Positions 2,430 to 51,334 of a stretch of 64,000 nucleotides of DNA are shown here, piece after piece. Both the position numbers and the translations under genes were made by a program. Location: positions 248,001 to 312,000 of the forward strand of contig NZ_OCNK01000004.1 of NCBI RefSeq assembly GCF_900230285.1, in the 5' to 3' direction. The stretch comes from Blastococcus haudaquaticus. GTDB lineage: Bacteria; Actinomycetota; Actinomycetes; Mycobacteriales; Geodermatophilaceae. Every line of letters begins with the position of its first letter. Positions within the stretch are counted from its first letter, which is position 1. Under the pieces are notes generated by a model that did not search any database, was not told the DNA's origin, and worked only from the letters and a program-made list of their open reading frames with translations.

Positions 2430-3443
2430 GTGCGCGCGATCTCCTACGACCGCCCCGGCGGCCCCGACGTCCTCGAGCTGACCGACCGGGCGATCCCGGA
2501 ACCGGGCCCCGGTGAGGTGCGCGTCCGCGTCGCCTACTCCGGCGTGAACCCGACCGACTGGAAGTCCCGCAGCAAGACGCCGCCGGAGCCCGGCGGGCAG
2601 GTGCCGAACCAGGACGGCTCCGGCACCGTCGACGCGGTGGGCCAGGGCGTCGACCCGGTCCTGGTCGGCGAGCGGGTCTGGATCTGGGAGGCGGCCTGGC
2701 AGCGGGCCTGGGGGACGGCGGCCGAGTTCACCGTCGTCCCGGCCCGGCAGACCGTGCTGCTCGGCGCCGGGCCGTCCTTCGAGCTCGGCGCCGCGCTGGG
2801 CATCCCCTTCCTCACCGCCCACCGCTGCCTGACCGTCGCGGAGTCGCTGCCCGACCGCATCGGGCCCGGCTCGCTGCAGGGCCGCACCGTCCTGGTGCAG
2901 GGTGGCGCCGGAGCCGTCGGCAACGCCGCCATCCAGCTCGCCCGCTGGGCCGACGCCACGGTCATCGCGACGGTGAGCGGCCCGGACAAGGCGCAGCTCG
3001 CCGCCGCCGCCGGTGCCGACCACGTCGTGAACTACCGGCAGCAGGACGTCGTCGCGGAGGTCCGCAAGGTCTCCCCCAAGGGCGTCGACTCCATCGTCGA
3101 GGTGTCGGCCGCGGTGAACGCCGGCATCGACGCGCAGGTCATCGGCATGCACGGGGCGGTCGCGATGTACGCCGACGACGGCGGCGCCGAGGTCACCGTG
3201 CCGGTGCGCCTGCAGATGGGGCCGAACGCCCGCTGGCAGTTCGTCCTGGTCTACACCGAGCCGGCGCGGGCCAAGGAGATCGGCGTCGAGGACGTGAACG
3301 CCGCGGTCCTGGACGGCGCGGTCCGGGTCGGCCGGGAAGCCGGGCTACCGCTGCACGTCTTCCCGCTCGGGCAGACCGCGCAGGCGCACCAGGCCGTCCA
3401 GGACGGCGTCGTCGGCAAGGTCCTGATCGACGCCACGGCCTGA
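2430..3443 (+). CDS. NADPH:quinone reductase-like zinc-independent alcohol dehydrogenase family protein
   Basis: Medium-chain dehydrogenase/reductase of the quinone oxidoreductase type, 337 aa. The GroES-like domain covers the first ~120 residues (EVRVRVAYSGVNPTDWKSR); the Rossmann domain follows with VLVQGGAGAVGNAAIQLA as the NADPH-binding motif. The structural and catalytic zinc cysteines of alcohol dehydrogenases are absent, which is typical of the quinone reductase branch. It probably reduces quinones or other electrophilic carbonyls in the cytosol; the substrate is unknown. The start is GTG. A cupin gene follows after 22 bases on the same strand and may be co-transcribed. Confidence 0.85.
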   Translation: MRAISYDRPGGPDVLELTDRAIPEPGPGEVRVRVAYSGVNPTDWKSRSKTPPEPGGQVPNQDGSGTVDAVGQGVDPVLVGERVWIWEAAWQRAWGTAAEFTVVPARQTVLLGAGPSFELGAALGIPFLTAHRCLTVAESLPDRIGPGSLQGRTVLVQGGAGAVGNAAIQLARWADATVIATVSGPDKAQLAAAAGADHVVNYRQQDVVAEVRKVSPKGVDSIVEVSAAVNAGIDAQVIGMHGAVAMYADDGGAEVTVPVRLQMGPNARWQFVLVYTEPARAKEIGVEDVNAAVLDGAVRVGREAGLPLHVFPLGQTAQAHQAVQDGVVGKVLIDATA

Positions 3444-3465
3444 CCGTCGTGCCTAGGCTGCGCGC

Positions 3466-3813
3466 ATGAGCACCGTCGACGTGCACCAGCTGTCCGCCGA
3501 ACTGCTCGACCGCGCTGCCCGGGGATCGGCGCACCGTGCGGCCAGCACCCTCCCGCACCCGGTCGACGGGCTCCGGCAGACGCTCATCGCGCTGCTGGCC
3601 GGCGCGGAGCTCGGCGAGCACGAGAGCCCCGGTCCGGCCAGCCTGCTCGTGCTCCGGGGCCGGGTCCGCCTCGTGGCAGGTGACCGGACGGTCGAGCTGG
3701 GCGCGCACCAGTTCAGCCCCGTCCCCGACCGGCGCCACCGCCTGCACGCGGACGAGGACGCCGTCGTCCTGCTGAGCGTGGCCGTTCCCGACCGCACCCC
3801 GCTCGCGGACTGA
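3466..3813 (+). CDS. cupin domain-containing protein
   Basis: A 115-aa single cupin. The central part (ESPGPASLLVLRGRVRLVAGDRTVELGAHQFSPV) is the two-motif cupin barrel, but the metal-binding histidines are mostly replaced: motif 1 retains only E..H.., and motif 2 has D-R-R-H-R-L-H. It is therefore probably a sugar, nucleotide or small-molecule binding cupin rather than a dioxygenase. It shares an orientation with the quinone oxidoreductase upstream. A strong inverted repeat lies just after the gene. Confidence 0.75.
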   Translation: MSTVDVHQLSAELLDRAARGSAHRAASTLPHPVDGLRQTLIALLAGAELGEHESPGPASLLVLRGRVRLVAGDRTVELGAHQFSPVPDRRHRLHADEDAVVLLSVAVPDRTPLAD

Positions 3814-3822
3814 CCCCTGGGC

Positions 3823-3840
3823 CGACACGTCGACGTGTCG
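3823..3840. repeat. 18-bp perfect palindrome
   Basis: CGACACGTCGACGTGTCG is its own reverse complement and has no loop. It lies 9 bases after the cupin stop and 12 bases before the larger hairpin at 3853-3903, in a convergent intergenic region. Confidence 0.7.
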
Positions 3841-3852
3841 CCCGACGCGCGA

Positions 3853-3903
3853 CTGTGCGCTGATCCACCTCGAAGTCGACGAATTCGGTGGATCAGCGCA
3901 CAG
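3853..3903. terminator. bidirectional terminator-like hairpin, 17-bp perfect stem
   Basis: Arms CTGTGCGCTGATCCACC (3853-3869) and its exact complement (3887-3903) flank a 17-base loop. It sits between two convergent genes, so it could end both transcripts. There is no T-run, as is usual in this GC range. Confidence 0.7.
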
Positions 3904-3915
3904 CGACGCTCGTGA

Positions 3916-5069
3916 TCAGCCGATGCCGAGGTCGCGGGCGATCAGCATCCGCTGCACCTCGCTCGTGCCCTCGCCGATCTCCAGGATCTTGGCGTCGCGG
4001 TAGAACCGGCCGACCGGGAAGTCGTTCATGAACCCGTACCCGCCGTGCACCTGGGTGGCGTACCGCGCGTTGTCCATGGCCACCTCGGAGCTGTACAGCT
4101 TGGCGATCGAGGCCTCGCGCTTGAACGGCTCCCCGCGCAGCATCTTCTCCGCCGCCCGGTAGTACGCCAGCCGCGCCGTCGAGGCACGGACCTCCATGTC
4201 GGCGATCATGAACTGGATCGCCTGGTTCTTCCCGATCACCTGACCGAACGCCTCGCGCTCGCCGGCGTACTTCACCGACTCGTCGACGCACCCCTGCGCC
4301 AGCCCGACCGACAGCGCCGAGATGGCGATGCGCCCCTCGTCGAGGATCGAGAGGAACTGGGCGTAGCCGCGCCCCCGCTCCCCCACCAGGTTCTCCTCCG
4401 GCACCCGGACGTCGGTGAACGAGAGCTCACGGGTGTCCGAGGCGTTCCAGCCGACCTTCGAGTACCGCTGGCCGACCACGAAGCCCGGCGTCCCCGACGG
4501 CACGATGATCGCCGAGATCTCCTTGCCACCGTCCGGTCGTGTGCCGGTCACAGCGGTGACGATCACGAGCTGCGTCAGGTCGGTGCCGGAATTGGTGATG
4601 AACGCCTTGGAGCCGTTGATCACCCAGTGCCCGTCCTCCAGGCGCGCGGTGGTCCGGGTGGCCCCCGCGTCCGAGCCGCCACCCGGCTCGGTCAGGCCGA
4701 AGGCGCCGAGCGCCTCGCCGGTGCACAGCCGGGGCAGCCACTCCTGCTTCTGCTCCTCGGTGCCGAACCGGAAGATCGGCATCGCCCCCAGGGAGACGCC
4801 GGCCTCCACGGTGATCGCCATCGAGCTGTCGACGCGGGCCAGCTCCTCGAGCGCCACGCAGAGATCGAAGTAGGTGCCGCCCGCGCCGCCGTACTCCTCG
4901 GGGAACGGCAGGCCGAACAGCCCGAGCTCGCCCATCTGGCGCACGATCTGCGTGGGGAACTCGTCGCGCTCGTAGAACTCCCCGATCTGCGGGGCGATGA
5001 CCTCCTGCGCGAACTCGCGGACGGTCGTGCGCAGTGACTCGGTCTCGTCGCTGAGCCGGTAGTCCAACA

Positions 5070-5070: not shown

Positions 5071-7073
<2,003 letters not shown>

Positions 7074-49540: not shown

Positions 49541-49630
49541 CCGGCGACGGGTGGGGTCGGTGGGACGCGTGCGGTCGACACGTGACCGGCGGTGCTGGCG
49601 TGCGGGGCGTGCGCCTCGGACTCTGGAGGC

Positions 49631-49873
49631 ATGACCAGCGTCTACGCGTACGGAACAGCCCACGCGGTGGTGATGGTCGGCTCCTTCGGCGCCGAGGGCC
49701 TGAAGCCGCGGCAGATCGGCCCGGCACACGCCACCATCGGCCGGGTCAGCGGCCAGAGCCGCAAGGCGCTCTGCGGGGCCTACGTCTCCATCGACGAGCA
49801 GCAGCCGTGGCCGCCGGAGAACCACGACGCCCAGCAGCTCTGCGACGCCTGCGCCGAGCTCGCCGCCCTCTGA
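49631..49873 (+). CDS. small hypothetical protein with Cys residues
   Basis: 80 aa, family not recognised. MTSVYAYGTAHAVVMVGSFG begins with a strand-rich segment, then KPRQIGPAHATIGRVSGQSRKALCGAYVSI. The C-terminus has QQLCDACAEL. Three cysteines (ALCG and C-D-A-C) plus nearby His residues could form a small zinc site. GGAGG is only one base from the ATG, so initiation may be unusual or use another start upstream (49592, 93 aa). Confidence 0.6.
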   Translation: MTSVYAYGTAHAVVMVGSFGAEGLKPRQIGPAHATIGRVSGQSRKALCGAYVSIDEQQPWPPENHDAQQLCDACAELAAL

Positions 49874-49973: not shown

Positions 49974-50255
49974 TCAGCCGCCGGCGACCGAGGGCAGGAC
50001 CTGGACCTCGGCGCCGTCCGGCACGGGCGCGGCCAGTCCCCCCTGGTAGCGCACGTCGTCGCCGTCGACGTAGACGTTCACGTAGCGGCGCACCGCGCCC
50101 GTCTCGTCACGGATCCGCCGGCCGAGCATGGGGTGCTCGGTGGCGAGCGCGTCCAGCAGATCGGCCAGCGTCCCGCCCCCCGCTTCGACGTCCACGTGCT
50201 TGGCGCCTCCGGTCAGCGAGGCCAGCGCACCGGGGAGCAGCACCTGCACGCTCAT
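49974..50255 (-). CDS. MoaD/ThiS-family ubiquitin-like sulfur-carrier protein
   Basis: 93-aa beta-grasp protein: strand VQVLLPGALASLTGG, helix TLADLLDALATEHPML, RYVNVYVDGDDVRYQGG, then PDGAEVQVLPSVAGG. It ends exactly in Gly-Gly, as needed for adenylation and thiocarboxylation by an E1-like enzyme. Such proteins donate sulfur in cofactor or metabolite synthesis. No moa, thi or E1-like gene is adjacent; instead it overlaps the stop of the beta-propeller gene as ATGA, so the two are translationally coupled. Confidence 0.9.
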   Translation of the reverse strand: MSVQVLLPGALASLTGGAKHVDVEAGGGTLADLLDALATEHPMLGRRIRDETGAVRRYVNVYVDGDDVRYQGGLAAPVPDGAEVQVLPSVAGG

Positions 50256-51334
50256 GGCAGCCGGGCCGCGCGCACGGTCAGGACGTCGGGCAGGTGGTCG
50301 GCGACCAGCGTGAAGGTGTCGCCCTCGTCCGCGCTCGCGTACACGCAGCCGTCCCGGGTGCCGAAGTAGATCCCGGTGCGCTCGTGGTCGTCGGCGCAGA
50401 ACGCATCCCGCATGACGGCGCTCCAGTTCCCGTCGGGCAGGCCGTCACCGAGCTCGGTCCAGCTGTCGCCGGCGTCGCGCGTGCGGTGGACCCGGAGCCG
50501 GCCGTCCGGGGGCACCCGCTGCATGTCGGCGACCAGCGGGATGACCCAGGCGGTGCCCGGGGTCCGCGGCGAGGAGACGATGGGGAAACCGAAGTCGACC
50601 GGCAGCCCGTCGGCGATCGACGTCCACGCTCTCCCGGCGTCGTCGCTGCGGAAGACGCCGAAGTGGTTCTGCGCGTACAGCCGGTCGGGGTCGCCCGCGT
50701 CGACGGCGACCTTGTGCACGCACTGGCCGTACTCGGGCAGCGGGTCGGGTCCGAAGGTCACCGTGATGCCGCGGTTGCGCGGCTCCCACGACTCGCCGCC
50801 GTCCGGGCTGACGTAGACGCCGCCGGTGCTCATCGCGATCGTCACGCGGTCCGTGGCCTGGTCCGGGAGGATCGTGTGCACGGCCCCTCCCCCTCCGCCG
50901 GGCTCCCAGGTGGGCCGGTGCGGGTGGTCGTGCAGCCCACGCACCAGCTCGAAGGAGCAGCCGCCGTCGCTGCTGCGCCACAGCGAGTGCGGCTCGCACC
51001 CGGCCCAGACGACGTCCGGCCGGTCGGCGCTGTCCGGGCGCAGCTGCCACACGCGGGCCAGGGCGGCGCCGGTGTCCTGCGGGAAGCTGATCGCGCCGTG
51101 GTCGGTCTCGTCCCAGGTGGCGCCGAGGTCGTCGGACCGCATCACGGTGGGCCCCCAGTGCCCGTACTGGATGCCCGCCAGCACCCGCGGGGCCGACCGC
51201 CGGGTGTCGATCGACACGGCGGCGACCTCCTGCGCCAGGAGGTGGGGTGCGCTCACCGTCCAGGTCCGTCGGTCGTCGTCACTGCGGGCGAGCCACAGCC
51301 CCTTGCGCGTCCCGATGGCCAGCAGGTCTGTCAT
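50252..51334 (-). CDS. sialidase-like beta-propeller (BNR-repeat) protein
   Basis: 360 aa, cytoplasmic by sequence (no signal peptide). Several BNR Asp-box motifs (S-x-D-x-G-x-T/S-W) are visible: MRSDDLGATWDE, WRSSDGGCSFE, VSPDGGESWEP, FRSDDAGRAWTS, HRTRDAGDSWTE, ASADEGDTFTL; they mark the blades of a propeller. There is no evidence for sialidase catalytic residues. Function unknown. Translational coupling with a MoaD/ThiS protein suggests the propeller acts with, or is modified by, the sulfur carrier. GGAGGGG lies upstream of the ATG. Confidence 0.85.
   Translation of the reverse strand: MTDLLAIGTRKGLWLARSDDDRRTWTVSAPHLLAQEVAAVSIDTRRSAPRVLAGIQYGHWGPTVMRSDDLGATWDETDHGAISFPQDTGAALARVWQLRPDSADRPDVVWAGCEPHSLWRSSDGGCSFELVRGLHDHPHRPTWEPGGGGGAVHTILPDQATDRVTIAMSTGGVYVSPDGGESWEPRNRGITVTFGPDPLPEYGQCVHKVAVDAGDPDRLYAQNHFGVFRSDDAGRAWTSIADGLPVDFGFPIVSSPRTPGTAWVIPLVADMQRVPPDGRLRVHRTRDAGDSWTELGDGLPDGNWSAVMRDAFCADDHERTGIYFGTRDGCVYASADEGDTFTLVADHLPDVLTVRAARLP

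Follow-up and report, generated by a model that had tools for sequence, protein, structure and literature searches.

Sulfur carriers are named by their acceptors, which include ThiG, MoaE, CysM and the thiosugar enzymes of antibiotic makers. The CysO of Amycolatopsis serves a second, non-cysteine acceptor through MoeZ, and PDB entry 4n6e is presumably this carrier with BexX, of 2-thiosugar synthesis. In MoaX, the MoaD-MoaE fusion of Mycobacterium tuberculosis, cleavage falls between Gly82 and Ser83 and depends on Gly81, and function requires both glycines (excerpt of PMC4326299). Among beta-propellers, the structure 3b7f is tabulated as seven-bladed with its function given as "not known" (excerpt of PMC2716378).

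A carrier gene and a propeller gene overlapping on the minus strand

The DNA analysed here (the window, 64,000 nucleotides of Blastococcus haudaquaticus) carries two overlapping genes on its minus strand, the propeller gene first and the MoaD gene downstream.

49974..50255, minus strand: MoaD/ThiS-family (CysO/SAMP1-like) sulfur-carrier-type protein, 93 aa, C-terminal end ...VLPSVAGG
49977..49982, minus strand: C-terminal Gly-Gly codons of the window MoaD, from the translation; motif kept in relatives
50252..50255, minus strand: ATGA overlap, propeller stop and MoaD start
50252..51334, minus strand: Asp-box (BNR) beta-propeller of the 3b7f family, 360 aa, probably seven blades

The coordinates and an Asp-box scan bear out a preliminary description of the window, in which a 93-residue carrier ending in Gly-Gly overlaps by ATGA with a propeller of six BNR motifs. 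Its remark that molybdopterin and thiamine genes are not nearby also holds for the six flanking ORFs scanned, which include none; MoeZ, CysO, Mec and a further MoaD are encoded elsewhere in the genome, the MoaA/MoaD genes on a contig other than that of the pair. An NTGA overlap occurs in 83 of 106 rows with MoaD downstream and in 15 of 25 with MoaD upstream, a weak signal in that any TGA stop without a preceding C qualifies. A possible ORF of 93 aa with four cysteines (window 49592-49873, plus strand) is convergent with the pair and has no Pfam match.

Recurrence was measured on 246 genomes drawn evenly from the phylum; the propeller profile matches 74 of them at 1e-20. From 81 rows, 70 strong propeller loci in 69 genomes (E <= 5.5e-65) were kept and 11 weaker, partial rows dropped, five genomes holding nothing but the latter. 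With a wider MoaD profile, 58 of the 70 strong loci (57 of 69 fetched sample loci plus the window) have a MoaD gene next to the propeller and on its strand, lying downstream in 30, upstream in 17 and fused in frame in 11; a first MoaD search had already placed MoaD beside the propeller in at least 42 of 70, none of the 42 on the opposite strand. As a rough estimate of chance gives about 0.05 adjacent pairs in 69 genomes, the pairing of 57 of 69 sample loci is more than chance. The remaining 12 strong loci comprise seven from a single Streptomyces-type family, four from family f46 and one cut by a contig end, and a repeat search with a wider profile at high sensitivity found no MoaD beside the solo propellers.

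Relatives of a single query protein, of which the best 80 of 289 were kept, come nearly all from Geodermatophilaceae and other actinobacteria, and the nearest named ones among these 80 belong to Blastococcus and Geodermatophilus; MoaD is adjacent in 73 of the 80 and not adjacent in seven. Loci from a plasmid collection have MoaD adjacent in 10 of 16 and not adjacent in six. The MoaD gene is upstream in plasmid records of Pseudomonas aeruginosa, Burkholderia, Cupriavidus, Paraburkholderia and Mitsuaria (Roseateles), and propellers on Rhodobacterales and Roseomonas plasmids are solo; these cases outside the phylum amount to at most 14 plasmid records and are not an even sample. The solo propeller of Rhodobacter sp. 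CZR27 (L007 4983-6110) adjoins egtB and egtD of ergothioneine synthesis, on the opposite strand. On a Tsukamurella plasmid (NZ_LR134452.1 314593-314862), a MoaD/ThiS protein match coincides with genes annotated as MoaD/ThiS and M67 metallopeptidase.

Mapped on a tree of 69 non-redundant propellers (fusions represented by 9 of the 11), the position of MoaD as downstream, upstream, fused or none requires 13 changes; shuffling gives a mean of 33.4. By parsimony the fused state requires five changes, though the starred branches force just one origin. No third gene travels with the pair among heuristic ORFs clustered around 79 loci: besides the MoaD clusters, one cluster of 16 ORFs covers 10 families, its members varying in position and strand, and the others cover four families or fewer.

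Taken together, the data indicate that MoaD and the propeller almost certainly work together, as a two-gene module conserved both as neighbours and as fusions. The preliminary description had called the pair recurrent in actinobacteria and had offered co-occurrence as a point on which the idea could fail; the count of 58 of 70 upholds it. Its proposal of two proteins that act together, in amounts predicted to be equal, is strengthened as to partnership by the natural fusions; the pair extends more widely than actinobacteria, and a strict one-to-one partnership is weakened by the 12 of 70 loci without an adjacent MoaD. A literature search that covered few subscription papers returned no paper on the carrier-propeller pair, which is not proof of its being unpublished. 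The main text of a survey of prokaryotic ubiquitin-like genes (PMC1779556) contains none of the words "propeller", "BNR", "WD40" or "sialidase", the sole "propeller" in PMC1949818 stands in an unrelated figure legend, and PMC11895460 and PMC3495685 are likewise unrelated to the pair.

Propeller fold and conserved residues

The window propeller has six Asp-boxes, at residues 67, 121, 176, 230, 285 and 334, and a hydrophobic leader was not seen by eye at its N-terminus. Its closest solved relative is 3b7f (E 2e-73), with homology over the full length (residues 4-358), and since 3b7f is seven-bladed the six boxes probably correspond to seven blades in the window protein as well. The AlphaFold2 model of a natural fusion (L100) superposes on 3b7f with Z 50.0 and rmsd 1.8 over 349 residues in VIA-align, and 3b7f is first in Foldseek too. 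Homology, together with the same fold in this modelled relative, places the window protein among 3b7f-type propellers, of which the genome encodes one. The next fold matches are GH74 enzymes with Z about 27, and DAIP, Ycf48 and sortilin stand lower in the Foldseek list.

Conservation was counted over 69 non-redundant propellers (57 paired and 12 solo, 9 of the 11 fusions included). T9, K11, W96, H153, H207, Q222, H224 and R309 are each kept in 0.99 to 1.00 of these. C205 is kept in 0.93, and none of the cysteines is fully invariant among the 69. Codons for the conserved Lys, His, Gln and Arg residues lie in the window as follows.

51302..51304, minus strand: Lys11 codon, 0.99 of 69; loop after the first strand in the model
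50876..50878, minus strand: His153 codon, 1.00 of 69; strand start in the model
50714..50716, minus strand: His207 codon, 0.99 of 69; strand start in the model
50663..50671, minus strand: Gln222 and His224 codons, 0.99 each of 69
50516..50518, minus strand: Arg273 codon, Arg in 0.87, His in other paired rows; long loop in the model
50408..50410, minus strand: Arg309 codon, 0.99 of 69; immediately ahead of a strand in the model

In the L100 model the conserved residues occupy strand starts or the loops that follow them, and we infer from strand order, rather than from coordinates, that the Lys/His/Arg set would lie on one face of the propeller. Solo propellers carry identical conserved residues, so this face need not be made for a linked MoaD and may instead serve a different ligand or a different carrier. 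A second CysO-like protein is encoded elsewhere in two Streptomyces-type genomes. In one of them (G107), this protein, which bears Gly-Gly (L180 3845-4276, plus strand), lies between a threonine synthase-like ORF (2652-3947, plus strand) ahead of it and a GroEL-like ORF (5303-6925, plus strand) after it, both assigned by eye; the other genome (G128, L179) encodes a similar protein.

The carrier, its Gly-Gly tail and a proposed role of the propeller

The window carrier contains a ThiS-family domain (PF02597, 51.4 bits, cut-off 22.5), ends in AGG and is encoded in a genome with an E1-like activating enzyme, as is characteristic of the ThiS/MoaD family. Against the molybdopterin synthase model TIGR01682 it scores 17.7 bits, below the cut-off of 66.15, and the moaA-linked MoaD of the same genome reaches merely 30.8 bits on that model. 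Its PDB matches are 4n6e_B, the best (E 4.4e-16), and the CysO chain 3dwg_C, and it is 47% identical to the genome's own CysO. PF02597 has three matches in the genome, namely the window MoaD, a CysO whose neighbours are a Mec-type JAMM protein and CysM, and a MoaD encoded next to MoaA; with CysO and the MoaA-linked MoaD present elsewhere, the window protein is a separate, third carrier. The genes cysM and mec adjoin the other carrier (L162) and not the window MoaD. In a tree of 87 carriers over 93 columns (L156, L114 and L004 left out), which is poorly resolved and holds few CysO rows, the six CysO rows cluster with the two CysO-like ones (SH-aLRT 99) in a group that includes no paired carrier, and by this sequence comparison the paired carriers are distinct from the CysO clade. 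The single strong E1 of the genome is a MoeZ that includes a rhodanese domain (742 bits against a cut-off of 647). As mycobacterial MoeZR sulfurates MoaD proteins and CysO alike (excerpt of PMC3227635), it is plausible that MoeZ is shared among the carriers.

The Gly-Gly tail, whose loss the preliminary description had set as grounds for refutation, is conserved (AGG, SGG or TGG) in 140 of the 142 MoaDs that are paired or fused, or in 139 of 141 distinct rows, the window being present twice (L002, L004). The two exceptions are L006, which ends in ALA, and L156, which is cut by a contig end. The former is the paired MoaD of Nonomuraea gerenzanensis (L006 5084-5392), full-length and without Gly-Gly, beside an intact propeller. 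Of 131 unfused rows, 21 have one to 25 residues, mostly one or two, after Gly-Gly. The window pair is likewise unfused; among its relatives, all 11 fusions have Gly-Gly at the junction between carrier and partner, and the next residue is Ala, Ser or Glu. Two fusions from different tree branches (L100 with 74 rows, L113 with 50 rows) were modelled with AlphaFold2, giving mean pLDDT 95.1 and 94.8 and pTM 0.85 and 0.82, and the sole stretch under pLDDT 50 is Ser-Gly-Gly in each (S84-G86 in L100, S83-G85 in L113). This fits a MoaX-like predicted cleavage and does not show it.

Enzymes that could activate and cut such tails are common in the propeller genomes. ThiF/E1 proteins occur in 67 of 69, being missing in G200 and G245 (84% complete), and Prok-JAB proteins in 66 of 69, against 45 of 80 propeller-free genomes (39 of 80 over the cut-off), an enrichment with Fisher values of 1e-8 and 5e-11, uncorrected for kinship, in which the control comprises 80 of 172 propeller-free genomes, roughly every other one. 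JAB is present in all 11 fusion genomes. Among genomes in which the carrier is fused or its tail extended, 26 of 27 have it, compared with 40 of 42 others, and it is so common that a link to fusions or extensions is not separable. The MoaDs of two complete JAB-free genomes (G008, G085) end exactly at Gly-Gly, and a third, incomplete one (G245) encodes a MoaD with a single Ser beyond Gly-Gly. Streptomyces-type CysO proteins also bear residues after Gly-Gly (five of five, with CysM adjoining in five of five and Mec in four of five fetched stretches), which makes trimming at this point likely in the carrier class as a whole. The extensions of these CysO proteins beside CysM (L174-L178, around 4000) are Met-Ala, Met-Arg or, in L177, 13 residues.

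The best explanation of these features is that the propeller is the acceptor of the carrier's Gly-Gly (thiocarboxylate) tail, which we hold tentatively and at somewhat less than an even prospect, the chemistry being inferred. MoeZ would adenylate and thiocarboxylate the Gly-Gly end; if this end is followed by further residues or by an entire propeller, a protease would first cut after Gly-Gly, Mec/JAB being the natural candidate; the freed tail would then enter the conserved propeller face, and the propeller would serve as acceptor enzyme or receptor for the thiocarboxylate or for a plain carboxylate. Tail capture is known in propellers of the Asp-box or seven-bladed kind: sortilin holds the C-terminal tail of progranulin (excerpt of PMC3115958) and the C-terminal extension of D1 is a site of interaction with Ycf48 (excerpt of PMC8909930), which suggests that a Gly-Gly tail may be held likewise. 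The main evidence against an acceptor role is that 12 of 70 strong-locus propellers have no adjacent MoaD; the full-length L006 carrier without Gly-Gly and the lack of a fully invariant propeller cysteine also count against it. The more detailed scheme, in which the propeller takes the thiocarboxylate of a dedicated carrier into its Lys/His/Arg face and either catalyses sulfur transfer or stores or senses it, outside the pathways to thiamine, molybdopterin and cysteine and with the JAMM protease Mec cutting natural fusions at Gly-Gly, is doubtful when all of its parts are taken jointly.

The same fusions and exceptions bear on a second explanation, in which MoaD is a non-covalent subunit that stabilises or regulates the propeller without sulfur chemistry and the fusions work uncut. 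Such a subunit would be compatible with a Gly-Gly that is internal in 11 fusion loci, with carrier and propeller domains that are both predicted well while fused, with the loss of Gly-Gly in L006 and with the persistence of MoaD-less propellers whose conserved residues are unchanged. A structural tail, however, is not expected to keep Gly-Gly in 140 of 142 carriers and, internal and disordered, in 11 of 11 fusions, and MoaX provides a precedent for such a junction as a cleavage site; we regard a purely structural role as unlikely.

A SAMP/Urm1-like modifier, with the propeller as target or target-presenting factor and an isopeptide formed via Gly-Gly and removed by JAB, has a distinctly small probability. 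The window MoaD does score over the cut-off of the NCBIfam SAMP1 model for ubiquitin-like small modifiers (NF041918, 64.6 bits, cut-off 60), JAB is present in 66 of 69 propeller genomes and the genome's JAMM protein matches a desampylase model, albeit at 66.2 bits and under the cut-off of 130. The genome's own CysO, however, also passes the SAMP1 model, with 61.2 bits, so the score does not separate a modifier from a carrier, and the sole near-invariant propeller lysine, K11, belongs to the conserved set and is at most a putative exposed acceptor. A glycoside hydrolase with an incidental neighbour, as suggested by the Asp-box repeats, by the public-record labels of the propeller genes (exo-alpha-sialidase or sialidase family protein, also in the plasmid records) and by GH74 enzymes as the next fold matches, is very improbable given 66.9 bits against a cut-off of 175 for NCBIfam glycosyl_F510_1955 (NF045728), a closest structure listed without a known function and a linkage in 58 of 70 loci, with fusions, that is not incidental.

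Comparison with known systems

In 58 of 70 loci of the even phylum sample, and also in proteobacterial plasmid records, a single type of carrier goes with a single type of propeller. If the acceptor role is correct, this propeller would be a further acceptor class for thiocarboxylate chemistry and the sialidase label would be corrected. CysO is the nearest well-studied carrier to the window MoaD through the match to 3dwg_C; the CysO-CysM-Mec system differs in that Mec and CysM have a CysO of their own next to them in this genome and in that no paired carrier groups with the CysO clade. The best PDB match, the presumed Amycolatopsis CysO/BexX entry 4n6e, also concerns a carrier of this kind, and the acceptor there, BexX, is not known to be a propeller. 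The structure 3b7f, a putative BNR glycosyl hydrolase of Ralstonia (Cupriavidus) eutropha, shares its propeller family with the window protein and was solved alone. Sortilin and Ycf48 differ in being extracellular or lumenal and in having partners that are neither ubiquitin-like nor sulfur carriers. The propeller fusions resemble MoaX in placing a MoaD-type domain ahead of its partner, with Gly-Gly at both junctions; the residue after it is Ser in MoaX, and in the propeller fusions it is Ala, Ser or Glu. In MoaX the partner is MoaE, not a propeller, and cleavage has been shown for MoaX alone; the Gly-Gly at a disordered junction makes the predicted cutting of the propeller fusions directly testable.
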